A stretch of DNA of 64,000 bases from Prochlorococcus sp. AG-347-L20 (GTDB lineage Bacteria > Cyanobacteriota > Cyanobacteriia > PCC-6307 > Cyanobiaceae). The notes below the pieces were generated by a model. The model saw only the letters and a list, made by a program, of their open reading frames with translations, was not told where the DNA came from and did no database searches. The stretch's first letter is position 1. Each line of letters opens with the position of its first letter. Position numbers and translations under genes: made by a program. This document shows positions 54,638-64,000 of this stretch, one piece after another. The stretch is taken from contig QCCP01000001.1 of NCBI GenBank assembly GCA_003281225.1, positions 186,001-250,000 on the forward strand, read 5' to 3'.

Positions 54638-54952
54638 ATGAATATGTTTCTAACTAACAAGACTCGTTTAAAAATTAAGGATATTGTAAAGAGGATTTCA
54701 ATAGATGAACCTGTTGCATTGGAGGAAAGAATTTATGTAGAAAAGTTTGCAAAACATAATTCAACTATATGGACATGGCTTAAGAAAGCTAACAGTTTAA
54801 GGAGATATGGTAAACAAAAATCTGACGGAATAAATGGACTAATTCAGAATCTTGGCCTTGATGGTTTAGAAACTGAAAACCATTTCGATCCCAAAAATGA
54901 TGATCTTGCTGATTGGTTTAGCGGATCTCCTGATTGGGTGAGGAGGAGCTAA
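54638..54952 (+). CDS. Conserved island protein (104 aa)
   Basis: A 104-residue soluble protein: a basic helical first half (RLKIKDIVKRISIDEPVALE) and an acidic, Trp-rich end (DDLADWFSGSPDWVRRS). A second ATG at 54644 is an equally possible start. I recognise no named domain. It converges with the 56-aa gene at 54980. Confidence 0.65.
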   Translation: MNMFLTNKTRLKIKDIVKRISIDEPVALEERIYVEKFAKHNSTIWTWLKKANSLRRYGKQKSDGINGLIQNLGLDGLETENHFDPKNDDLADWFSGSPDWVRRS

Positions 54953-54979
54953 TTGCCCTTCGTTTAAAATCGATTCAAA

Positions 54980-55150
54980 TTAATAATGAAAAAAGGGAAC
55001 TTCCTCAACTTGTCTTGGAGCATAATCACAAATTCCGAATTGCATACATTCCATTTGAGCATCAGATAATTTTCTCTCAATTGATAACGTATCAAACAAA
55101 CCACCAAATGCATGTTGAATTTTATTTTTAATTAGATTTCTGTAAGTCAT
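54980..55150 (-). CDS. Small conserved protein (56 aa)
   Basis: A 56-codon frame with a good ribosome binding site (GGAG, 6 nt before ATG). The product (MTYRNLIKNKIQHAFGGLFD, then ERKLSDAQMECMQFGICD) has two cysteines 7 residues apart near the middle. The overlapping plus-strand frame at 54934-55131 has no such support. The function is unknown. Confidence 0.65.
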   Translation of the reverse strand: MTYRNLIKNKIQHAFGGLFDTLSIERKLSDAQMECMQFGICDYAPRQVEEVPFFHY

Positions 55151-55339
55151 AATTAACTCCTTTTTTTAGAAGTTATTTAGTATTGGTTATATACAAGAAT
55201 CAAGAGTTTTATTACCTAAATACAAATTATAAATTATTCTTTTTTAAAATATTTCACTAAATTCATAATCAGTATTTTTGCTCTAGGAAATTTGAATCAT
55301 CACCTTTAAATTAGATCTACTGATTGGAGGTTTAACTTC

Positions 55340-55447
55340 ATGAGTACTTACAAAACGAAATACTTTAAAAACACAAAAAAGATCAATAACACTCTTTGGT
55401 TGGATAAATTAATTAATCAACTTGAAAAAAAATCAAAGGGAGTTTGA
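55340..55447 (+). CDS. WLD-LIN-IE microprotein, paralogue 2 (35 aa)
   Basis: A 35-codon frame with a strong GGAGG ribosome binding site 10 nt upstream. The core NTLWLDKLINQLEKKSKG matches the microproteins at 47781 and 56250. It is followed 2 nt later by the twin-CX3C gene, so the two are probably translated from one mRNA. Confidence 0.7.
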   Translation: MSTYKTKYFKNTKKINNTLWLDKLINQLEKKSKGV

Positions 55448-55449
55448 TC

Positions 55450-55614
55450 ATGAATACATTTAGAAATAAACAATTTAAAAATGAATTAGATCCCAAGTAT
55501 GCCTTTTATGATTGTCTTCGTAGTTGCGAAATTAAGAGTAATTCTGAAATGTCTTTAGAAGAATGCGTCGAAAATTGTGAACCTAGATTATTACCAGAGA
55601 ATCTCGATGGCTAA
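55450..55614 (+). CDS. Twin-CX3C miniprotein (54 aa)
   Basis: A 54-residue protein with cysteines at 22, 26, 39 and 43: CLRSC, 12 residues, then CVENC. This is the twin CX3C arrangement known from small helical-hairpin proteins such as the mitochondrial Tim9/Tim10 chaperones, with two disulfides clamping a helical hairpin. Similarity to that family is only in layout. It begins 2 nt behind paralogue 2 of the WLD-LIN-IE family. Confidence 0.65.
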   Translation: MNTFRNKQFKNELDPKYAFYDCLRSCEIKSNSEMSLEECVENCEPRLLPENLDG

Positions 55615-55626
55615 AAATAGGAATTT

Positions 55627-55664
55627 AAACTCTATTCAATACCTATTTTGACCTTATAGAGTTT
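55627..55664 (+). terminator. Possible terminator behind the twin-CX3C gene
   Basis: AAACTCTAT and ATAGAGTTT form a 9-bp stem around a 20-nt loop, with two more T on the right. The loop is long, so this is a weak call. It lies 12 nt after the twin-CX3C stop. Confidence 0.35.
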
Positions 55665-55691
55665 TTATATAGATTTAAGGAGGGTAATCTT

Positions 55692-55850
55692 ATGACCAAC
55701 CTCGCAATTGAGCTACTATTTCTAATTGTAGTTTTAGTGAATTTTGGAGCGATCCTTACCGCTAAAATTTATTCACAATCGGTAAAAGAAATTCAACGTA
55801 AGAGATTATTCTGTAGTGAATCTATAAGTAACCCATATTGTGTTTTTTGA
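55692..55850 (+). CDS. Single-pass membrane microprotein (52 aa)
   Basis: A 52-codon frame with a perfect AGGAGG ribosome binding site 8-13 nt upstream. The N-terminal membrane segment (LAIELLFLIVVLVNFGAIL) is followed by a basic region and a tail with two cysteines (LFCSESISNPYCVF). An 8-bp perfect hairpin (TAGATCTC/GAGATCTA, 55870-55891) follows the stop. Confidence 0.65.
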   Translation: MTNLAIELLFLIVVLVNFGAILTAKIYSQSVKEIQRKRLFCSESISNPYCVF

Positions 55851-55869
55851 TAAATTACTTCTAAACTAA

Positions 55870-55891
55870 TAGATCTCAAACTAGAGATCTA
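55870..55891. other. 8-bp hairpin between convergent small genes
   Basis: TAGATCTC-AAACTA-GAGATCTA lies 19 nt after the stop of the 52-aa gene and 27 nt from the end of the minus-strand 35-aa frame. No T tract is present, so it may protect 3' ends rather than terminate. Confidence 0.45.
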
Positions 55892-55917
55892 ATATTAAAA
55901 GTTAAAGTCTACCAAAA

Positions 55918-56025
55918 CTAAAAATAAGGTGTATATGGTACTTCTGTTTTTAATGAATCTCCATAGTAACTTTCAGCTGACTTTACCAAGATCCAATAAA
56001 TGAAATTTAGAAATGATTTTTCCAT
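55918..56025 (-). CDS. Possible small island protein (35 aa)
   Basis: A 35-codon frame (MEKSFLNFIYWILVKSAESY, then GDSLKTEVPYTPYF) with a short hydrophobic N-terminal half and a polar aromatic end. There is no clear ribosome binding site at normal spacing. It is the only frame of note in the 399-nt stretch from 55851 to 56249. Confidence 0.4.
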   Translation of the reverse strand: MEKSFLNFIYWILVKSAESYYGDSLKTEVPYTPYF

Positions 56026-56249
56026 AGGAATATCTATACCCTTTCCTAATTCAAATCAGAATTTAAAATAAAAACATCGTAGAAAATACTTAATTGAAGA
56101 GATTTAGATTTTCTTAGTTAATTTGTGTTGGTTAGGTTTGTATGAAATGCTACTAAAGCTTGTCTTATCAATTGATTTGGTAATATTGCTTATTGATTCC
56201 TGTAATTTCAAAAGATATATTAAATGGACAATATTAATAAAAGAAATTT

Positions 56250-56366
56250 ATGAGTACTCAAAAAAGTCAAAACCATAAAAGACAAGAGCAAAATAATACA
56301 GAATGGTTAGATGAATTAATCAATAAAATTGAAAATATGAAAAATAAAATATCTAATACTTTTTAA
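56250..56366 (+). CDS. WLD-LIN-IE microprotein, paralogue 3 (38 aa)
   Basis: A 38-codon frame. The polar N terminus (MSTQKSQNHKRQEQ) is followed by the core NTEWLDELINKIENMKNKIS, very close to the core of the 45-aa protein at 47781. The helix places Trp, Leu, Leu, Ile and Ile on one side. The function is unknown. Confidence 0.68.
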   Translation: MSTQKSQNHKRQEQNNTEWLDELINKIENMKNKISNTF

Positions 56367-56424
56367 CTTATTACTTCTTCTATTATTTATTCCGTTATTA
56401 AATTTTTTAAATACTTTTGTAATT

Positions 56425-56441
56425 AAGCCAGCTGGCTTTTT
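56425..56441 (+). terminator. Possible terminator behind paralogue 3
   Basis: AAGCC-AGCT-GGCTT followed by TTT. The stem is short but the most GC-rich element in the gap. It separates the small-gene region from the guanidine cassette. Confidence 0.45.
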
Positions 56442-56573
56442 AATAGAATTATGTATTTTTTTTGCAAATAGTTATTTAACAATGTTTAAATGAGAATCTT
56501 TTAAAGCAAGTTTATGGTTCATTTTTATTTTTATTGACAATATTGAAATAAGTGTAAAAAGAATTTTTAATTT

Positions 56574-57764
56574 GTGACTACAGAATCATCTAAAAATCAA
56601 AACTTTATAAGGAAGCATCCCAGCGAAGGAATGGATGCTTTAGAAAAAGAATCAAAATTACCTCTTAAAGGGTGGGAAAAGGAGGTTGCCCGAGCAAAGG
56701 AATATGGTTTAGAAGGAGCAAAAAGTATTGTTGATAGAAATATATCTACATTTTCAAGAGGAGAATTACCCCATTTTGCAGGTATCAATACTTTCATGAA
56801 AGCTCCATATGTAGAAAATGTAAATGAAGTGGGAAGTTATGATGTTGCGATCGTTGGTGTTCCTCATGATTCTGGAACTACTTATAGACCAGGGACAAGA
56901 TTCGGACCTCAAGGAATTAGAAAAATTTCTGCTCTCTATACTCCTTACAATTACGAAATGGGAGTGGATCTGAGAGAGCAGATATCTATTTGTGATGTAG
57001 GAGATATTTTTACAATTCCAGCTAATAATGAAAAAAGTTTTGACCAAATTTCAAAGGGGGTTGCTCATATTTTTGCTAGTGGTGCATTTCCAATTATTTT
57101 AGGTGGAGATCATTCAATAGGTTTCCCCACCGTTAGAGGAGTTTGTCGCCACTTAGGAGATAAAAAAGTAGGGATCATTCATTTTGATAGACATGTAGAT
57201 ACTCAAGAAACAGATTTAGATGAAAGAATGCATACCTGTCCATGGTTTCATGCAACTAATATGAAAAATGCACCTGCAAAAAATCTTGTTCAATTAGGAA
57301 TTGGAGGTTGGCAAGTACCAAGAGAAGGAGTGAAAATTTGCAGGGAACGAAGTACAAATGTTTTAACAGTTACTGATATCTGTGAAATGGGATTAAAAGA
57401 GGCCGCTGATTTTGCGATTGATAAAGCTACGGATGGAACTGACTGTGTATATATTTCTTTTGATATTGATTGTATTGATGCTGGATTTGTCCCTGGAACT
57501 GGTTGGCCTGAACCTGGGGGTTTATTACCTCGAGAGGCATTAAAACTTTTGGAGTACATTATCAGAAAAGTTAATGTATGCGGAATTGAACTTGTTGAGG
57601 TTTCGCCTCCATATGATGTAAGCGATATGACAGCTCTATTAGCTACTAGAGTTATTTGTGATTCAATTGCACATCTTGTAGTAAGTGGTCAGCTCCCAAG
57701 AAAATCTAAACCAGAATGGATTTCAGAAAAATGCAATATGTCCGTTGATCAAAAATGGAGATAG
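56574..57764 (+). CDS. gdmH: Ureohydrolase, probable Ni-dependent guanidine hydrolase
   Basis: A 396-residue arginase/agmatinase-superfamily enzyme with metal ligands His180 (GGDHS), Asp205, His207 and Asp209 (HFDRHVDTQ), and Asp297 and Asp299 (SFDIDCID). It is longer than ordinary agmatinases and, with the DRHVD form, the ~75-residue N-terminal extension and the GTGWPEPGGLLPREAL block, resembles Sll1077 of Synechocystis, shown to be a Ni-dependent guanidine hydrolase giving urea and ammonia. The HypA/HypB-like genes directly downstream strongly support Ni dependence. The start is GTG. Older annotation calls this speB/agmatinase. Confidence 0.85.
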   Translation: MTTESSKNQNFIRKHPSEGMDALEKESKLPLKGWEKEVARAKEYGLEGAKSIVDRNISTFSRGELPHFAGINTFMKAPYVENVNEVGSYDVAIVGVPHDSGTTYRPGTRFGPQGIRKISALYTPYNYEMGVDLREQISICDVGDIFTIPANNEKSFDQISKGVAHIFASGAFPIILGGDHSIGFPTVRGVCRHLGDKKVGIIHFDRHVDTQETDLDERMHTCPWFHATNMKNAPAKNLVQLGIGGWQVPREGVKICRERSTNVLTVTDICEMGLKEAADFAIDKATDGTDCVYISFDIDCIDAGFVPGTGWPEPGGLLPREALKLLEYIIRKVNVCGIELVEVSPPYDVSDMTALLATRVICDSIAHLVVSGQLPRKSKPEWISEKCNMSVDQKWR

Positions 57765-57770
57765 ATTTTC

Positions 57771-58127
57771 ATGCATGAAGTAGATATGACAAAATGCCTT
57801 ATTCTTTCCGTGGAAGAGTGGGCAGAGAAAAAAAATAAAAAAAAAATAGTTGTTGAAAAGATTAATCTTAAAATTGGGGAATTTACTTGCGTAGAACCAA
57901 TATCATTAATTAATACTTTTAATGCTGCAGTCTTGGGTTCATGGTTAGATTCCTCTGAGATTACAATTGAGACAATACCTTTTGAAGGGAAATGCTCTAA
58001 ATGCAATAGATTATATTTTCCAAAGAAAGAGAATGGATATAAATCTCCATGTTGTAATTTTAATTTAGAGGAAATTATTAGTGGGAGGGAATTAAAAATC
58101 GCATCTATTGATTTTAAAGAAAATTAG
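57771..58127 (+). CDS. HypA-like nickel insertion protein
   Basis: A 118-residue HypA/HybF homologue. It begins MHE, whose His2 and N terminus bind Ni in HypA. The zinc-binding loop holds Cys75 and Cys78 (CSKC) and Cys94 and Cys95 (SPCC instead of the usual CPxC), so the second Cys pair is shifted. No hydrogenase genes are seen; the position between the ureohydrolase and a HypB-like gene fits the GhaA-type role of loading Ni into guanidine hydrolase. It begins 6 nt behind gdmH. Confidence 0.85.
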   Translation: MHEVDMTKCLILSVEEWAEKKNKKKIVVEKINLKIGEFTCVEPISLINTFNAAVLGSWLDSSEITIETIPFEGKCSKCNRLYFPKKENGYKSPCCNFNLEEIISGRELKIASIDFKEN

Positions 58128-58167
58128 AAATTTAGTATCTAGAATAAAAACGTATTTTCAAATATAA

Positions 58168-58851
58168 ATGCATTTACCAATTTCAGACAAAATTGAATTA
58201 AATATTCTTCATCAAAATAGTCATCAAGCAGAGAAAAATAAAGTTAAGTTTAATAATTATAATTTACTTTGCTTGAACATAATGAGCAGTCCAGGTGCAG
58301 GAAAAACGAGATTACTTGAAATAACTTTAGAAGATCTTTCAAAAAAATTTCATAGTGCTGTTTTAGAGGGTGATATGACCACTAATCTTGATGCGGCAAG
58401 ATTAGAAAAATTAAATATTCCAGTAGTACCAATTACAACTGGAAGAGCATGCCATCTCGATGCAAATATGGTTAGTGGAGGTTTGAAATTACTAGAGAAA
58501 AAAATAAATCCTGATTCACTAGATATTTTGTTAGTGGAAAATGTAGGAAATTTAGTGTGTCCTGCAGAATTTGAGATTGGAGAACATTTTAAAGTTGCAC
58601 TTTTAAGTATTACCGAAGGTGAGGATAAACCTTTAAAATATCCAATAATGTTTAGAGAAGCAGATTTAATTTTGATAACTAAAGTTGATTTGTTACCCCA
58701 TTTGAATTTTGATATTAACGAATTAAAATCGAACATAGCTTCGACTAATCATAAGGCAGATGTGATAGAAATTTCTTCGGTAACCAAGTCTGGATTTGAT
58801 TTATGGCAAGATTGGATTAGTAAAAAGATTCTGAAATTTAAAAATATTTAA
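58168..58851 (+). CDS. HypB-like nickel-inserting GTPase
   Basis: A 227-residue SIMIBI-class GTPase. It has the P-loop MSSPGAGKTRLLE (~41-53), EGDMTTNLDAARL, the Ni-site region TGRACHLDANMV, ENVGNLVCPAEF, TEGEDKPLKYPIMF and the base motif TKVDLL. It lacks the N-terminal CxxCGC motif and the His-rich stretch of hydrogenase HypB. Next to gdmH it is best read as the GhaB-type GTPase that drives Ni insertion. Confidence 0.88.
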   Translation: MHLPISDKIELNILHQNSHQAEKNKVKFNNYNLLCLNIMSSPGAGKTRLLEITLEDLSKKFHSAVLEGDMTTNLDAARLEKLNIPVVPITTGRACHLDANMVSGGLKLLEKKINPDSLDILLVENVGNLVCPAEFEIGEHFKVALLSITEGEDKPLKYPIMFREADLILITKVDLLPHLNFDINELKSNIASTNHKADVIEISSVTKSGFDLWQDWISKKILKFKNI

Positions 58852-58881
58852 TATTGATTAAGTAAGAGTAATCTCTTAAAA

Positions 58882-58895
58882 GTATCAGTCATTAC
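58882..58895 (+). promoter_or_regulatory. Perfect NtcA box ahead of the ABC importer
   Basis: GTATCAGTCATTAC is an exact GTA-N8-TAC NtcA site. A TATTGA hexamer 25 nt downstream (58921-58926) could be the -10 element. This would place the transcript start near 58933, only about 17 nt before the ATG at 58950. The first eight bases are identical to the glnB-associated site at 15338. The site makes nitrogen-stress control of the importer likely. Confidence 0.7.
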
Positions 58896-58949
58896 AACTT
58901 TAGATTTGCTTTTTCTTGAGTATTGATAGTACGTAAAATTTTTTCAAAA

Positions 58950-59948
58950 ATGTTTAAAAAATTGAGAGTTTTTGTTGCCTCTTTGCTGGCTCTATTATTA
59001 GCGATTTCATTGAGTACACTATCAAGTCCTGCAGCTCCAAAAGGTGAACCAATCACTTTGGGATACAGTAACTGGGCAGGATGGTGGCCCTGGGCGATAG
59101 CTGTTGATCAAAAAATGTTTGAAAAAAATGGAGTTAATGTTCAGATGAAATGGTTTGATGGATATGTTCAATCCATGGAAACTTTTGCTGCTGGTAAAAT
59201 TGATGGAAATTCGCAGACTCTTAATGATACTATTTCGTTCTTGCCAGGAGAGAATGGAGGGGAAGTAGTTGTTTTAGTTAATGATAATTCTGCAGGAAAT
59301 GACCAAATAATTGCAGATAAATCAATTAAAAGTGTTACTGATTTGAAAGGTAAAACAGTAGCAGTAGAAGAAGGTGTTGTGGATGATTTTTTACTTGTTT
59401 TGGCTCTGAATGATGTTGGATTAACTCGAGATGATGTAATTATTAAAGGACTTCCAACTGATCAGGCTGCAACTGCATTCGCAGCAGGAAAAGTTGATGC
59501 AGTTGGTGCATTCCCTCCATTTACAGGAACTGCAATGAAGAGGCCTGGAGCAAGAGTTATTGCTAGTTCAAAAGATTATCCCGGTGCAATCCCTGATTTA
59601 TTAGCTGTAAGCGGAGATTTGATTTCTGAAAGACCAGATGATGTTCAAAAAATTGTTAAAACATGGTGGGATGTAAGAGAATTCATGGAAAAAAATCCAA
59701 GAAAATCTGAAAAGATCATGGCAAAGCGAGCTGGGATTCCAACACGCGAATACAAACAATATAAAGATGGAACTAGGTTCTTTACTTTGGAAGAAAATTT
59801 AGAAGCTTTTAGTGATGGCTTTGGTATGAAACATATGCCTTATGCAGCAAAACAAATGGCAGACTTTATGGTAAAGGTAGGATTTATTCCTGAAAAACCA
59901 GATATGAGTAAATTATTTGACTCTTCGTTCGTTAAAAACATCAGTTAA
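58950..59948 (+). CDS. ABC importer substrate-binding protein (NrtA/TauA/SsuA type)
   Basis: A 332-residue periplasmic binding protein with a basic start (MFKKLR) and a signal peptide (VFVASLLALLLAISLSTLSS). The mature part LGYSNWAGWWPWAIAVDQ, LNDTISFLPGENGG and KVDAVGAFPPFTGTAM follow the nitrate/taurine/sulfonate family. An in-frame TTG at 58923 is rejected as start because it sits on the predicted -10 element. By context the ligand is guanidine or a guanidino compound; the equivalent Synechocystis genes are next to sll1077. Confidence 0.85.
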   Translation: MFKKLRVFVASLLALLLAISLSTLSSPAAPKGEPITLGYSNWAGWWPWAIAVDQKMFEKNGVNVQMKWFDGYVQSMETFAAGKIDGNSQTLNDTISFLPGENGGEVVVLVNDNSAGNDQIIADKSIKSVTDLKGKTVAVEEGVVDDFLLVLALNDVGLTRDDVIIKGLPTDQAATAFAAGKVDAVGAFPPFTGTAMKRPGARVIASSKDYPGAIPDLLAVSGDLISERPDDVQKIVKTWWDVREFMEKNPRKSEKIMAKRAGIPTREYKQYKDGTRFFTLEENLEAFSDGFGMKHMPYAAKQMADFMVKVGFIPEKPDMSKLFDSSFVKNIS

Positions 59949-59964
59949 TTGATACAAAATTAAA

Positions 59965-60783
59965 ATGGTCAGTTCGAAATTAATCAAGAGGGATAAAAAA
60001 TATTTATCCCTCTTTTCATTTGGTAGTGAACCGAAAAAATTAAATAAAATATTTCTTCAAATAGCCTCACTTTTGCTTCCCCTTTTAATTTGGACATTAG
60101 TTTGTCAATTAAAACTTGTAAGTGAAATGTTTTTACCATCACCGTTAGCGGTCTTTTATTCTCTTTTGGATATGGCTGAAAGTGGAATATTATTTGAAGA
60201 TATTTTTGCAAGTACTGGTAGGGTATTTGCTGGTTTTATAATTGCAACAATTTTTTCAATTCCTTTAGGAATTTTAATGGGTTCTTTCCCTTCTTTTTGT
60301 GCATTATGTGAACCATTAATTGCGATGCTTAGGTATATGCCTGCTGCTGCTTTTTCTCCTTTGCTTATTATTTATTTAGGAATAGAAGAGGCTCCAAAAA
60401 TCGCATTAATTTTCATTGGTACTGTTTACTTTAATGTTCTGATGGTTATGGATTCAGTAAAATTTGTACCCAAAGAACTCATTGAAACAACGCTTACTTT
60501 AGGAGGTAATACACAAGATTTATTGATCAGAGTAATAGCCAGATATTCATTGCCAAGTATTATTGATACTTTAAGAATTAATATCGCAACTTCATGGAAT
60601 TTAGTAATTGTTGCAGAGTTAATTGCAGCAGAAGTTGGTTTAGGTAAAAGGATTCAATTGGCTCAAAGATTTTTTCGCACAGATCAAATATTTGCAGAAT
60701 TAATAGTTCTTGGATTAATAGGATTTGCTTTGGATATGAGTTTTAGATTGCTACTTAGACGTACATGTAAATGGGCTGTTTAA
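59965..60783 (+). CDS. ABC importer permease (SsuC/TauC type)
   Basis: A 272-residue inner-membrane protein with about six membrane segments and the EAA-type cytoplasmic loop ELIETTLTLGGNTQDLLIRV before the final segments. It begins 16 nt behind the binding-protein gene, and its stop codon abuts the start of the ATPase gene. Confidence 0.92.
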   Translation: MVSSKLIKRDKKYLSLFSFGSEPKKLNKIFLQIASLLLPLLIWTLVCQLKLVSEMFLPSPLAVFYSLLDMAESGILFEDIFASTGRVFAGFIIATIFSIPLGILMGSFPSFCALCEPLIAMLRYMPAAAFSPLLIIYLGIEEAPKIALIFIGTVYFNVLMVMDSVKFVPKELIETTLTLGGNTQDLLIRVIARYSLPSIIDTLRINIATSWNLVIVAELIAAEVGLGKRIQLAQRFFRTDQIFAELIVLGLIGFALDMSFRLLLRRTCKWAV

Positions 60784-61545
60784 ATGAAATTAGATGTTAA
60801 TAATATTTCAAAATATTTTGGGGAAGGTTCAAATAGAAAAAAGGCAATTGAGGGAATAAGCTTTTCAATAAGTTCTGGCGAATTTAAAACTCTTGTTGGG
60901 AGCTCTGGATCAGGTAAAAGTACTATATTGAGGATTATTGCTGGGCTTGAGAGTCCATCTAAAGGGAATGTAAAAGTAGATGGAAAAATAGTTAGTGGAC
61001 CGGGATTGGATAGAGGAATGGTTTTTCAGAAATATAGTCTTTTCCCTTGGCTCACAGCATCTGAGAATATTGCATTTGGAATGAATTTAAATTCTTATAA
61101 GTTGAAAGAAATAAAATATAGGACATCTTATTTATTAGAAGTAGTAGGTCTTCAGGATTCGGGTAATAAGTATCCAAAAGAATTATCTGGTGGAATGCAA
61201 CAAAGGATTGCAATCGCAAGAGCTCTAGCGACTAACCCTAAAATTCTACTTTTAGATGAACCTTTTGGAGCCTTGGACTTACAGATAAGAGAATCTATGC
61301 AGAAATTTCTCTATGAATTATGGAAAAAAACTTCACTGACAGTTTTACTTATAACCCATGATATTGAAGAAGCATTAGCTCTCTCTCAGCAAATATGTAT
61401 TTTGTCGCCAAATCCTGGAAGAATCATAAAAGAAGTTAAGGTAGATCTACAAAAAGGAGATTTAGATAAATTGAAACTTGATGCGGATTTTGCAAAATTA
61501 AGATATGAGTTATCTGATTTTTTAAGAGGCCTCCAAAAAAAATAA
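60784..61545 (+). CDS. ABC importer ATP-binding protein (SsuB/TauB type)
   Basis: A 253-residue ABC ATPase with Walker A GSSGSGKST, the Q-loop region VFQKYSLFPWL, the signature LSGGMQQRIAIARAL, Walker B ILLLDEPFGALD and the switch His in LLITHDIEEAL. It follows the permease without a gap and is followed 3 nt later by the Rieske gene. Confidence 0.95.
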   Translation: MKLDVNNISKYFGEGSNRKKAIEGISFSISSGEFKTLVGSSGSGKSTILRIIAGLESPSKGNVKVDGKIVSGPGLDRGMVFQKYSLFPWLTASENIAFGMNLNSYKLKEIKYRTSYLLEVVGLQDSGNKYPKELSGGMQQRIAIARALATNPKILLLDEPFGALDLQIRESMQKFLYELWKKTSLTVLLITHDIEEALALSQQICILSPNPGRIIKEVKVDLQKGDLDKLKLDADFAKLRYELSDFLRGLQKK

Positions 61546-61548
61546 ATA

Positions 61549-62571
61549 ATGTCAACTAGTTTTTTGCCTACTTGGCTTTATAAAGACCAAAAAATTTTTG
61601 AACTTGAATTAGATAACTATTCAAAAAATTATTGGCACCCATTGATTTTCATAGGAGAAATCAAACCTGGCGAAATATTGGAAAAAAAATTCTTTAATCA
61701 ATCATTATTTATCTCGCGTTCAGAAAATAATTTAATAACTGTTTTTAAAAATAGATGCCCTCATCGTGGGTCAAAATTGTGTTTGCCAAAAACAAAATTT
61801 AATCCTTCTAATAATATTTTTTGTCCCTACCATGGCTGGACTTTTGATAGTTTTGGTAAACTTAAAACCTTGCCATTAAAGCACAATTTTGAAACAAAAA
61901 TAGAAACAAAGGATTATTTTTTAGAAAAAGTTAACTCTTTAATAAATGGACCTTTAATTTGGATTAATTTCAGCAAAAAACCAATATCTATAGATGATCA
62001 AATTGAGCTTGTTGGGAGAAAATGTAATGATGAATGGGATATGAATTACAGTATTTTTTCTGAATTTTCTGATACCTTAAATTGCAATTGGAAAATTGCC
62101 CATGACAATACACTGGACGATTATCATGTAGCAATAGCTCATAAAGATACCCTACATAAAGAACAAGGTCCAATTAAAAACTACAGGTATTTCTTCAGTG
62201 AATTTTGTAATGTACTTGTTACCCCTCTTAGTAGTGAAGGAAATCTATATACCTTTGGATTACTCCCATGGACCCATCTAATAATCTGGCCTGGTAAAGG
62301 GATTGTTTTAATAAATTATCTTCCTAAAAATATTGGTCAGTGTATTATTGAAATTAAATTAGCCTCTGCTTCTTTATGTAAAAATGATTTAGAAAATTGG
62401 AAAAAAAGTATATTAGAATTTCTTGGAGAGGATAAAGTTATTGTCGAATCAGTTCATAAGTCTTATCTCGAAAATTTTAAACTTGGTCCGCCTAATAGAC
62501 TTGAACAAAGGATTATACACTGGCAAAATATTTATAAAGATTTTCTAAATGCATCAGGCATTTCTTTCTAA
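61549..62571 (+). CDS. Rieske non-heme iron oxygenase
   Basis: A 340-residue alpha-subunit-type oxygenase. The Rieske [2Fe-2S] ligands are Cys70 and His72 (RCPHRG) and Cys92 and His95 (CPYHGW). The mononuclear iron site is NTLDDYHVAIAH with His193 and His198; the third ligand Asp is expected in the C-terminal part. It starts 3 nt behind the importer ATPase, so it is almost certainly co-expressed. A role in oxidising an imported guanidino or N-alkyl compound is inference. No reductase gene is adjacent, so a ferredoxin from elsewhere must supply electrons. Confidence 0.85.
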   Translation: MSTSFLPTWLYKDQKIFELELDNYSKNYWHPLIFIGEIKPGEILEKKFFNQSLFISRSENNLITVFKNRCPHRGSKLCLPKTKFNPSNNIFCPYHGWTFDSFGKLKTLPLKHNFETKIETKDYFLEKVNSLINGPLIWINFSKKPISIDDQIELVGRKCNDEWDMNYSIFSEFSDTLNCNWKIAHDNTLDDYHVAIAHKDTLHKEQGPIKNYRYFFSEFCNVLVTPLSSEGNLYTFGLLPWTHLIIWPGKGIVLINYLPKNIGQCIIEIKLASASLCKNDLENWKKSILEFLGEDKVIVESVHKSYLENFKLGPPNRLEQRIIHWQNIYKDFLNASGISF

Positions 62572-62685
62572 AATAATTTCTATTTAGTTCACAAATATTA
62601 TTAATTAAATTCTTAATTTGGTAGGGATTTGACTACATATTTAATATACTTTATTGATAATGTAGTTAAGTACAAAAAGTTAATT

Positions 62686-63003
62686 ATGAAAAATTTTATA
62701 CTAATAATAGTCTCTTTATCTTTCTTATCTTCTTGCAGTAATGACAAAGATTTTTTTCTCACTGAGGGGAACGCTTTGTTAAGTTGCGGAGGTAAATCTC
62801 GTATCATCGAAAATGATAAAGAAGAGATAATTAATACTGAAGTCAAGGATTTAAGAGATGGAATTGGTAAATACGTTGAATTTACAGTTGTTGAGACTGA
62901 TAAAAAAGGAGGCAAATATAGGATTATTAATTGTTTCCCAAGTGAAGAACCACAAGATTCAATAATAAAAACTGTTAAAACAAATTATAAATTAAGTAAT
63001 TAA
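62686..63003 (+). CDS. Small lipoprotein
   Basis: A 105-residue protein with a lipoprotein signal: MKNFILIIVSLSFLSSC, with the lipobox Cys at residue 17. The mature part is polar with a likely small beta-rich fold (GKYVEFTVVETDKKGGKYRI) and two further cysteines. An earlier in-frame TTG (62629) would add a non-signal stretch and is rejected. The function is unknown. Confidence 0.7.
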   Translation: MKNFILIIVSLSFLSSCSNDKDFFLTEGNALLSCGGKSRIIENDKEEIINTEVKDLRDGIGKYVEFTVVETDKKGGKYRIINCFPSEEPQDSIIKTVKTNYKLSN

Positions 63004-63031
63004 AAGTTATTTAAAAATAATTAGCTTACCT

Positions 63032-63886
63032 TTAAGCTGAGATTTTTGATGATTTGATAATTTCCCATGCTTCTGGTGCGGTGTCTGCATATTGGAAAAG
63101 ATTTAAGTTTTCATCCGAAATTAATCCAAGATCAGCTAGATATTCGAAGTTAATTATCTTATTCCAATAATCTTTACCAAAAAGTATGATTGGGATTTTA
63201 GTTTTCATTCCTGTTTGACAAAGTGTCAATAGTTCAAATAATTCATCTAGTGTTCCAAAACCTCCAGGAAAAAATACAGCAGCTACTGATCGCATGACAA
63301 AATGGATCTTTCTTAATGCAAAATAATTAAACTTAAAGCAAAGACCTGGAGTTATAAAAGCATTTGGGATTTGTTCATTAGGCAGACTGATATTTAACCC
63401 TATAGATTTACAATTTGCTTCAAATGCACCTCTATTAGCAGCTTCCATAATTCCTGGCCCCCCACCTGTCACAATCACATGAGAATTACAGTTTTTATTT
63501 TGATTACTAATTGAAGCAAGTTTAGAAAACTCCCTTGCGGATTGATAGTAATGACTCATAAGAAGCAAATTTTCTAATCTATTTAAATTACGTTTTAAAA
63601 GTATCGATTTAGGATTTTTTTTAATTAACTCTTCTATATTTTCAAGTCTCTTTTTTATATTTGATTCTTCTGTAATGCTTGCGCCTCCAAAAATAATTAT
63701 TGTTGAAAGAATTTTATTTTCTTCAAGGATTAAATCTGGTTTAGTAATTTCAAGAAGCATTCTGACTCCACGCATTTCATTTCGGCTAAGTAAACCAATA
63801 TCTTCGTGAGCCAATTTATAAGTATCAGAATTAATAATTAAATTCAGATTTTTTAAATTATTACTAGGGGATATATGTTTTTTCAT
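63032..63886 (-). CDS. LOG family protein (Rossmann nucleotide-binding)
   Basis: A 284-residue protein with the LOG/TIGR00730 motifs VTGGGPGIMEAANRGAFEA and FFPGGFGTLDELFELL. LOG enzymes release free bases from nucleoside 5'-monophosphates (cytokinin-activating in plants); bacterial roles are less clear. This is the long form with an ~80-residue N-terminal extension. ATG at 63886 is preferred over an upstream in-frame TTG that would overlap the preceding gene's stop. Confidence 0.85.
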   Translation of the reverse strand: MKKHISPSNNLKNLNLIINSDTYKLAHEDIGLLSRNEMRGVRMLLEITKPDLILEENKILSTIIIFGGASITEESNIKKRLENIEELIKKNPKSILLKRNLNRLENLLLMSHYYQSAREFSKLASISNQNKNCNSHVIVTGGGPGIMEAANRGAFEANCKSIGLNISLPNEQIPNAFITPGLCFKFNYFALRKIHFVMRSVAAVFFPGGFGTLDELFELLTLCQTGMKTKIPIILFGKDYWNKIINFEYLADLGLISDENLNLFQYADTAPEAWEIIKSSKISA

Positions 63887-63887
63887 T

Positions 63888-64000
63888 TCAAACAAGAGTT
63901 TTAACTTTTCTTTCTAGAGGATTAAAATAGACCCTTTTGATTTTGTTATTTTCGTAAATCCAATAAACAGGCGGACTTTTTCTTGCCTTAATTAAATTAA
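63888..64000 (-). CDS. Partial gene at the right edge (C-terminal end)
   Basis: An open minus-strand frame enters from the right edge and ends at TGA 63888-63890, giving about 36 residues (KARKSPPVYWIYENNKIKRV, then YFNPLERKVKTLV). The stop is one base from the LOG start codon, so the two genes are coupled. Too little is visible to name it. Confidence 0.6.
   Translation of the reverse strand, partial: NLIKARKSPPVYWIYENNKIKRVYFNPLERKVKTLV

Follow-up and report, generated by a model that had tools for sequence, protein, structure and literature searches.

In this work, a seven-gene cassette for the use of guanidine was analysed in a stretch of 64,000 nucleotides (the window) from Prochlorococcus sp. 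AG-347-L20, whose genome comprises 1.65 Mb in 36 contigs. With it, the cell can very likely take up guanidine and degrade it as a nitrogen source. Its last gene encodes a Rieske non-heme iron oxygenase, and a box of the NtcA type lies between its third and fourth genes. Taken as a whole, we consider it probable that the cassette imports and hydrolyses guanidine, that the Rieske enzyme supplies guanidine to this pathway, and that the NtcA-type box, in a cassette lacking the riboswitch of most relatives, responds to nitrogen stress. The narrower proposal, in which the Rieske enzyme oxidatively dealkylates N-substituted guanidines and Prochlorococcus has swapped riboswitch sensing for NtcA control by nitrogen status, is a tentative one that we hold with less than even confidence. 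The cluster, its guanidine reading and the nickel reading are already published, so the core is not new: Dore et al. (2023) described Pro-eCAG_004/Syn-eCAG_001 in Prochlorococcus and Synechococcus with readings of guanidine, nickel and transport (PMC10119275; this and the other papers are cited from excerpts). New here are the missing riboswitch in Prochlorococcus together with the NtcA-type site inside the cluster, and the observation that an unstudied Rieske oxygenase is tied to the guanidine cassette across cyanobacteria. Research on guanidine as a nitrogen source in the sea is recent, and few phototrophs are as abundant as Prochlorococcus.

A preliminary description of this DNA had placed seven genes in a given order in one plus-strand block at 56574-62571. 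This layout was confirmed by open reading frame (ORF) calls and by Pfam, which assigned in order the families Arginase, HypA, CobW/HypB/UreG, NMT1-type, BPD_transp_1, ABC_tran and Rieske with Ring_hydroxyl_A. The features of the locus, including the three proteins of the ATP-binding cassette (ABC) importer, are as follows.

56425..62600 (ends approximate), strand not applicable, insertion/deletion unit missing from cassette-less relatives (flank alignments)
56482..56528 (ends approximate), plus strand, conserved block 5' of the hydrolase, putative promoter/operator (near-invariant in 21 aligned copies)
56574..57764, plus strand, predicted guanidine hydrolase of the GdmH/Sll1077/SpeB2 type, GTG start (PF00491)
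57771..58127, plus strand, HypA-like nickel metallochaperone (PF01155 above cut-off)
58168..58851, plus strand, HypB-like GTPase (TIGR00073, 271.8 bits, cut-off 121.2)
58882..58895, plus strand, NtcA-type box GTATCAGTCATTAC between hypB and the binding-protein gene (GTA-N8-TAC)
58950..59948, plus strand, periplasmic binding protein of the SsuA/NMT1 family (TIGR01728, 271 bits, cut-off 163.5)
59965..60783, plus strand, ABC permease (PF00528, BPD_transp_1)
60784..61545, plus strand, ABC ATPase (PF00005, ABC_tran)
61549..62571, plus strand, Rieske non-heme iron oxygenase, probable N-dealkylating monooxygenase (PF00355, PF00848)

The binding-protein ORF opens at a TTG codon at 58923 and runs to 59948 (58923-59948). 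The ATG at 58950 is the preferred start, because its context is kept in 24 aligned copies and the surroundings of the TTG are variable. Median ratios of nonsynonymous to synonymous substitution rates (dN/dS) of 0.04-0.20 across the seven cassette genes indicate that these ORFs are real genes and not chance ORFs. In this calculation locus L108 of genome G341, with its partial and frame-broken Rieske gene, was left out, and hypB was represented by only 18 sequences owing to truncation or length differences.

The product of the first gene scored 754.5 bits (residues 15-396) against the PDB entries 7esr/7oi1, which are crystal structures of Synechocystis Sll1077, and 572.2 bits against 9fek, the guanidinase of Nitrospira; the next-best match reached only 171.8 bits. 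The DRHVD motif named in the preliminary description is present and is the same in both solved guanidinases of the alignment. Identity to the congeners is 96-98%, with a median dN/dS of 0.061. Moreover, a guanidine-I riboswitch was found 5' of the hydrolase gene in 36 of the 39 other Cyanobiaceae genomes with homologous cassettes that were scanned (by batch 8/10, 10/10, 6/7 new, 8/8 new and 4/4 new), and Sll1077 was reported to degrade guanidine and not agmatine (PMC8390497). The match to 7esr/7oi1, the riboswitches and the published Sll1077 assays together support the assignment of the hydrolase as a guanidinase of the GdmH/Sll1077 type, as had been suggested. When the guanidinase of N. inopinata was offered other guanidino compounds, methylguanidine included, none gave detectable urea save agmatine, with a very minor amount, and this narrow specificity was said to agree with previous results for the enzyme from cyanobacteria (PMC11410670).

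HypA- and HypB-like helper genes adjoin the hydrolase gene. The cassette HypA is the only PF01155 match in the host genome and falls below the NCBIfam hypA equivalog cut-off (73.4 vs 88.1), and the same genome gave no match to the large subunit of a NiFe hydrogenase. These results, together with the reviewed Synechocystis case (PMC12186494), support the earlier suggestion that HypA and HypB would load nickel into the hydrolase. The sll1077-sll1082 region of Synechocystis PCC 6803 resembles the cassette in its guanidinase, its HypA/B-like helpers, described as nickel-loading, and its ABC importer (PMC8390497, PMC12186494). The Synechocystis operon is controlled by a guanidine-I riboswitch (PMC12186494), whereas none was found in the window, and it contains no Rieske gene according to the excerpts of PMC10119275.

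In 38 of the 39 other Cyanobiaceae genomes the importer is encoded next to the hydrolase, the exception being G186, which has it at another site; individual genes of the importer went uncalled in L033, L044, L051 and L067. The binding protein, permease and ATPase would bring in guanidinium and probably also small N-substituted guanidines. The urease alpha subunit was found in the host genome, and the economical reading is that the nickel-loaded hydrolase would split guanidine into urea and ammonium and that urease, encoded elsewhere in the genome, would free the remaining nitrogen. The core of the proposal, that guanidine would serve as a nitrogen source, is supported, and the idea was already present in PMC10119275.

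The predicted regulation of the cassette in Prochlorococcus differs from that in most of its relatives. No guanidine riboswitch was detected in the window at the gathering level, in the host genome, or in any of the 16 congener loci scanned of the 28 fetched. Rfam searched at E up to 10 over 54900-56700 gave five chance-level matches, none of them a guanidine riboswitch, and a riboswitch remnant 5' of the hydrolase was rejected because this relaxed search of 1.8 kb returned chance-level matches only. The riboswitch fronts both cassettes of one genus outside the Cyanobiaceae (G416 and G481). The sequence GTATCAGTCATTAC at 58882-58895 fits the NtcA consensus GTA-N8-TAC and occupies the widest intergenic gap of the cassette. 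Its motif is kept in all 24 aligned Prochlorococcus copies (the window and 23 congener loci), with the exact 14-mer in 22 of them, and it sits inside a conserved block of 39 bases around which the bases vary; five of the 28 congener loci are omitted from this alignment, since four end before the box and L101 has the motif outside the cut. None of 38 other Cyanobiaceae loci has GTA-N8-TAC in the 600 bases that precede the binding-protein ORF, but many of them come from genomes that look richer in G+C, where the motif may be rarer by chance. Judged from this match and its conservation, the box probably subjects the importer and Rieske genes to control by nitrogen stress. Upstream of the hydrolase, a block at about 56482-56528 is almost invariant in 21 aligned copies. 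Another box at 56140-56153 was set aside as an NtcA site of the hydrolase, because it lies more than 400 bases upstream and outside the cassette and its sequence is also found in a cassette-less relative. The excerpts of PMC10119275 describe the riboswitch for Synechococcus and mention no change of regulation for Prochlorococcus. Among the papers listed by a literature search on guanidine with Prochlorococcus, Rieske and riboswitch, which left subscription papers mostly uncovered, none on riboswitch loss or an NtcA box was seen. The missing riboswitch and the conserved box offer a testable case of a streamlined genome trading substrate sensing for general nitrogen control.

The Rieske gene was listed in the preliminary description and is real; no role had been given to it, and the role proposed here is our interpretation. 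Among 251 Cyanobiaceae genomes, guanidinase (at least 78% identity) was found in 87 and the Rieske gene (E < 1e-40) in 60. Guanidinase accompanied the Rieske gene in 59 of these 60 carriers, 28 genomes had guanidinase alone and 163 had neither (Fisher p 1.6e-34, a value that, like the next one, ignores shared ancestry). The sole Rieske carrier without guanidinase, G153, is 81% complete. Partial guanidinase matches in G074, G063 (one internal stop) and G044 were counted as carriers, the Rieske match is split in two pieces in G048, G051 and G108, and the 60 exclude both 11 genomes whose Rieske matches were weak (E about 6e-16 to 1e-10) and a second weak match in the host genome. In a phylum sample of 292 cyanobacteria, guanidinase was found in 44 genomes and the Rieske gene in 13 (E 1e-40), all 13 within the 44 (p 3.8e-12). 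Furthermore, G416 and G481, which belong to one genus of another family, carry hydrolase, hypA, hypB, importer and Rieske genes in the same order, the Rieske gene directly after the ATPase and the riboswitch in front; in G481 only a hypB-like ORF of 75 amino acids was called. The published cluster likewise combines speB2/guanidinase, hypA, hypB and a Tau-like ABC importer, followed downstream by a Rieske gene in most Synechococcus/Cyanobium carriers (PMC10119275). In that paper the Rieske gene is presented as setting the cluster apart from that of Synechocystis, and here a related gene stands in the same place in G416 and G481.

The residues C70, H72, C92, H95, D190, H193, H198 and D295 are invariant in 28 of 28 sequences (the window and 27 congeners), and in a 36-row Rieske alignment these metal-site residues are fully invariant save H95 (90% or more). 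We take C70, H72, C92 and H95 to be the CxH...CxxH ligands of the Rieske cluster, H193, H198 and D295 to be the 2-His-1-carboxylate iron site, and D190 to be the bridging residue. The top matches in named genomes are in records labelled Prochlorococcus or uncultured picocyanobacteria. An AlphaFold2 model of the protein (mean predicted local distance difference test score, pLDDT, 88.6; residues 195-202 poor) had its best fold match in CntA (Z 32.2, root-mean-square deviation (rmsd) 2.4, 325 aligned residues), followed by stachydrine demethylase (Z 30.4, rmsd 2.7, 325 aligned); the matches to these two enzymes span Z 30-32, rmsd 2.3-2.9 and 312-326 residues, and CntA ranked first in both fold searches. 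Both enzymes act on N-methylated cations. They differ from the cassette protein in sequence (about 20% identity and no equivalog score), and CntA has Glu at the position of D190 in the alignment. As modelled, the Rieske protein most resembles the Rieske enzymes that cleave C-N bonds of carnitine and stachydrine.

Our best reading, drawn by analogy, is that the Rieske enzyme frees guanidine from N-substituted guanidines. With a substrate such as methylguanidine or another substituted guanidine, it would most likely hydroxylate the carbon bound to the guanidino nitrogen, giving guanidine and an aldehyde, and the guanidine would feed the hydrolase, whose tested relatives barely accept substituted guanidines. 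Since the cassette lacks a reductase gene, ferredoxin would be the electron donor. The analogy is to MgdH of Vreelandella and concerns position and chemistry, not family. In Vreelandella boliviensis, a non-heme iron oxygenase is likewise added to a guanidine pathway: MgdH, a 2-oxoglutarate enzyme in a guanidine-riboswitch operon, hydroxylates methylguanidine and guanidine is freed (PMC12508155). The operon differs in its separate lyase MgdL and in a guanidine carboxylase instead of a hydrolase (PMC12508155). The cassette Rieske protein does not belong to the 2-oxoglutarate/Fe(II) dioxygenase family of MgdH, since its only Pfam domains are Rieske and Ring_hydroxyl_A. If the proposed Rieske step is correct, the cell would also tap methylated or otherwise substituted guanidines as an ocean nitrogen source, and dealkylation of N-substituted guanidines would, as far as the searched literature shows, be a new reaction of the Rieske superfamily. 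Iron supply would then be tied to this nitrogen use, which fits the absence of the guanidine eCAG from low-iron waters (PMC10119275).

Several results weigh against parts of this interpretation. The hydrolase also passes the NCBIfam agmatinase equivalog cut-off (181 vs 174.3 bits), agmatinase being the label formerly borne by Sll1077. The Rieske gene is missing from 28 of the 87 guanidinase genomes of Cyanobiaceae and thus is not needed for guanidine use. Its product reached no equivalog cut-off (GbcA, 84.7 of 670 bits), and the cassette contains neither an MgdL-like lyase nor a reductase gene. After CntA and stachydrine demethylase, most fold matches are to ring hydroxylases (Z 27-30), and ring-hydroxylating Rieske enzymes trail stachydrine demethylase by about 1 Z and CntA by about 3, so the fold does not fix the substrate; an aromatic substrate is allowed by the fold and finds no support in the neighbourhood. 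G525 has a Rieske relative downstream of a heme oxygenase gene, and G424 has one beside a different ABC importer and a gene for an isochorismatase-family hydrolase; in both genomes the relative lies on a contig other than that of the guanidinase, with no riboswitch in the stretch scanned. The G424 locus (L210 7363-11906, minus strand), whose isochorismatase-family hydrolase is biuret hydrolase-like and below the cut-off, is possibly a separate uptake-oxidation unit. The rival that we regard as the main one builds on such cases: the Rieske enzyme would have no part in making guanidine and would oxidise other cargo of the same importer, such as a quaternary ammonium compound or a sulfonated amine, with two uptake functions joined in one cassette. 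The only NCBIfam subfamily passed by the binding protein is the sulfonate-binding one, the Rieske relative of G424 has an importer of its own, and in G186 about 160 kb separate an importer-Rieske unit from the hydrolase-HypAB unit, so that there the Rieske gene goes with the importer. In G481, a TauE/SafE-type exporter gene (L207 7082-7876, minus strand) stands directly 3' of the Rieske gene. This second uptake function is a real but doubtful possibility, against which stand the 13 of 13 Rieske carriers of the phylum sample that also have guanidinase and the guanidine riboswitch before the first gene of the one-block cassettes in most other carriers scanned. The TauE-type gene is not found at this place in G416, and a sulfonated guanidine (taurocyamine) as substrate is a lead only.

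The Rieske gene also evolves faster than its neighbours, and in Prochlorococcus it could be a decaying passenger kept by linkage, with its fast change reflecting relaxed constraint. Its median dN/dS of 0.204 is the highest of the seven genes (0.041-0.097 for the other six), the stem of the genus measures 2.07 changes per column for the Rieske protein vs 0.31 for the hydrolase, and the Rieske frame of G341 is broken in addition to a contig-end cut. The frame is open over its full length in 27 of the 28 congener matches, however, the eight metal-site residues are invariant, and the ratio is well under 1 and under that of the adjoining non-cassette gene 62629-63003 (0.260, from only 7 sequences), so we judge decay to be unlikely. 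In the Rieske tree, where several rows, Prochlorococcus included, have a deviating make-up and branch lengths are rough, the non-Cyanobiaceae clade is 3 changes per column distant; owing to this distance and make-up, common descent within the cassette and separate recruitment of the Rieske gene are not separable. On the regulatory side, G024 and G097 (one genus) and G186 also lack the riboswitch among the 39 other Cyanobiaceae genomes, and riboswitch loss is thus not unique to Prochlorococcus. NtcA-activated promoters have the box centred about 41.5 bases before the transcription start (PMC3898017). A clear canonical -10 spacing was not seen in the cassette, where TATTGA begins 25 bases past the box, and the window holds 16 GTA-N8-TAC motifs vs 6.4 expected. 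The box could be a chance match with the importer read from the hydrolase promoter only, which we find rather unlikely given that the motif is kept in all 24 copies, while the bases around its block vary, and lies in the widest gap of the cassette. Finally, the cassette could detoxify guanidine made in the cell, as Sll1077 raises the guanidine tolerance of Synechococcus 7942 (PMC8390497). We consider this improbable, since importer and hydrolase are neighbours in 38 of 39 other Cyanobiaceae genomes and in all 21 congener loci that extend to the hydrolase, the NtcA-type box suggests a role in nitrogen supply, and the published distribution, which avoids low-iron regions, was read as nutrient-related (PMC10119275).

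Within Prochlorococcus, the cassette is a presence/absence insertion. The Rieske gene or cassette was found in 29 of 121 genomes of the genus, the host included, and in 9 of the 42 that are at least 90% complete. The comparison of gene neighbourhoods proposed in the preliminary description gave the same gene order in every congener locus that reaches the hydrolase (21 of the 28 fetched, the others being cut by contig ends). A downstream LOG gene follows the cassette in 27 of 28 congener loci, and an upstream ORF of 104 amino acids is present in 19 of the 20 that extend that far. In the cassette-less L121, positions corresponding to 55891-56424 of the window are joined directly to 62601-64000, so a single unit of about 6.2 kb is either there or missing. 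The flank gene was searched in ten cassette-less genomes, with no match in G095. Six empty-site regions were fetched, of which three align on both flanks, L122 and L123 also with the cassette missing between them, and three on the LOG-gene side only. Such a site eases the comparison of carrier and non-carrier strains.

Some further observations concern the surroundings of the cassette and its relatives. A gene similar to type III glutamine synthetase/GlnT lies between hypB and the binding-protein gene in 12 of the 39 other Cyanobiaceae genomes, seven with and five without the Rieske gene, with a shortened copy in L041. The copies at L066 6081-7454 (minus strand) and L039 3752-5158 (plus strand) scored 564.9 and 547.9 bits against the TIGR03105 cut-off of 469.6, and no such gene was seen in the Prochlorococcus loci. 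We take it as a variable extra with a possible role in the capture of ammonium or an alkylamine. In G162, the guanidine-I riboswitch is preceded, at a distance of about 0.8 kb, by a glutamine-II riboswitch (L059 1003-1064, plus strand). The count of GTA-N8-TAC motifs in the window is higher than in any of 100 shuffles, and many of the 16 may be NtcA sites. The only Rfam match of the window at the gathering level is the ATPC RNA motif RF01067 (20659-20748, plus strand, 96 bits). In the long gap upstream of the hydrolase, two alike small ORFs of 38 and 35 amino acids (56250-56366 and 55340-55447, both plus strand) share the pattern MST...WLD.LIN..., and the former is strongly conserved in congeners, with its region retained in a cassette-less relative.

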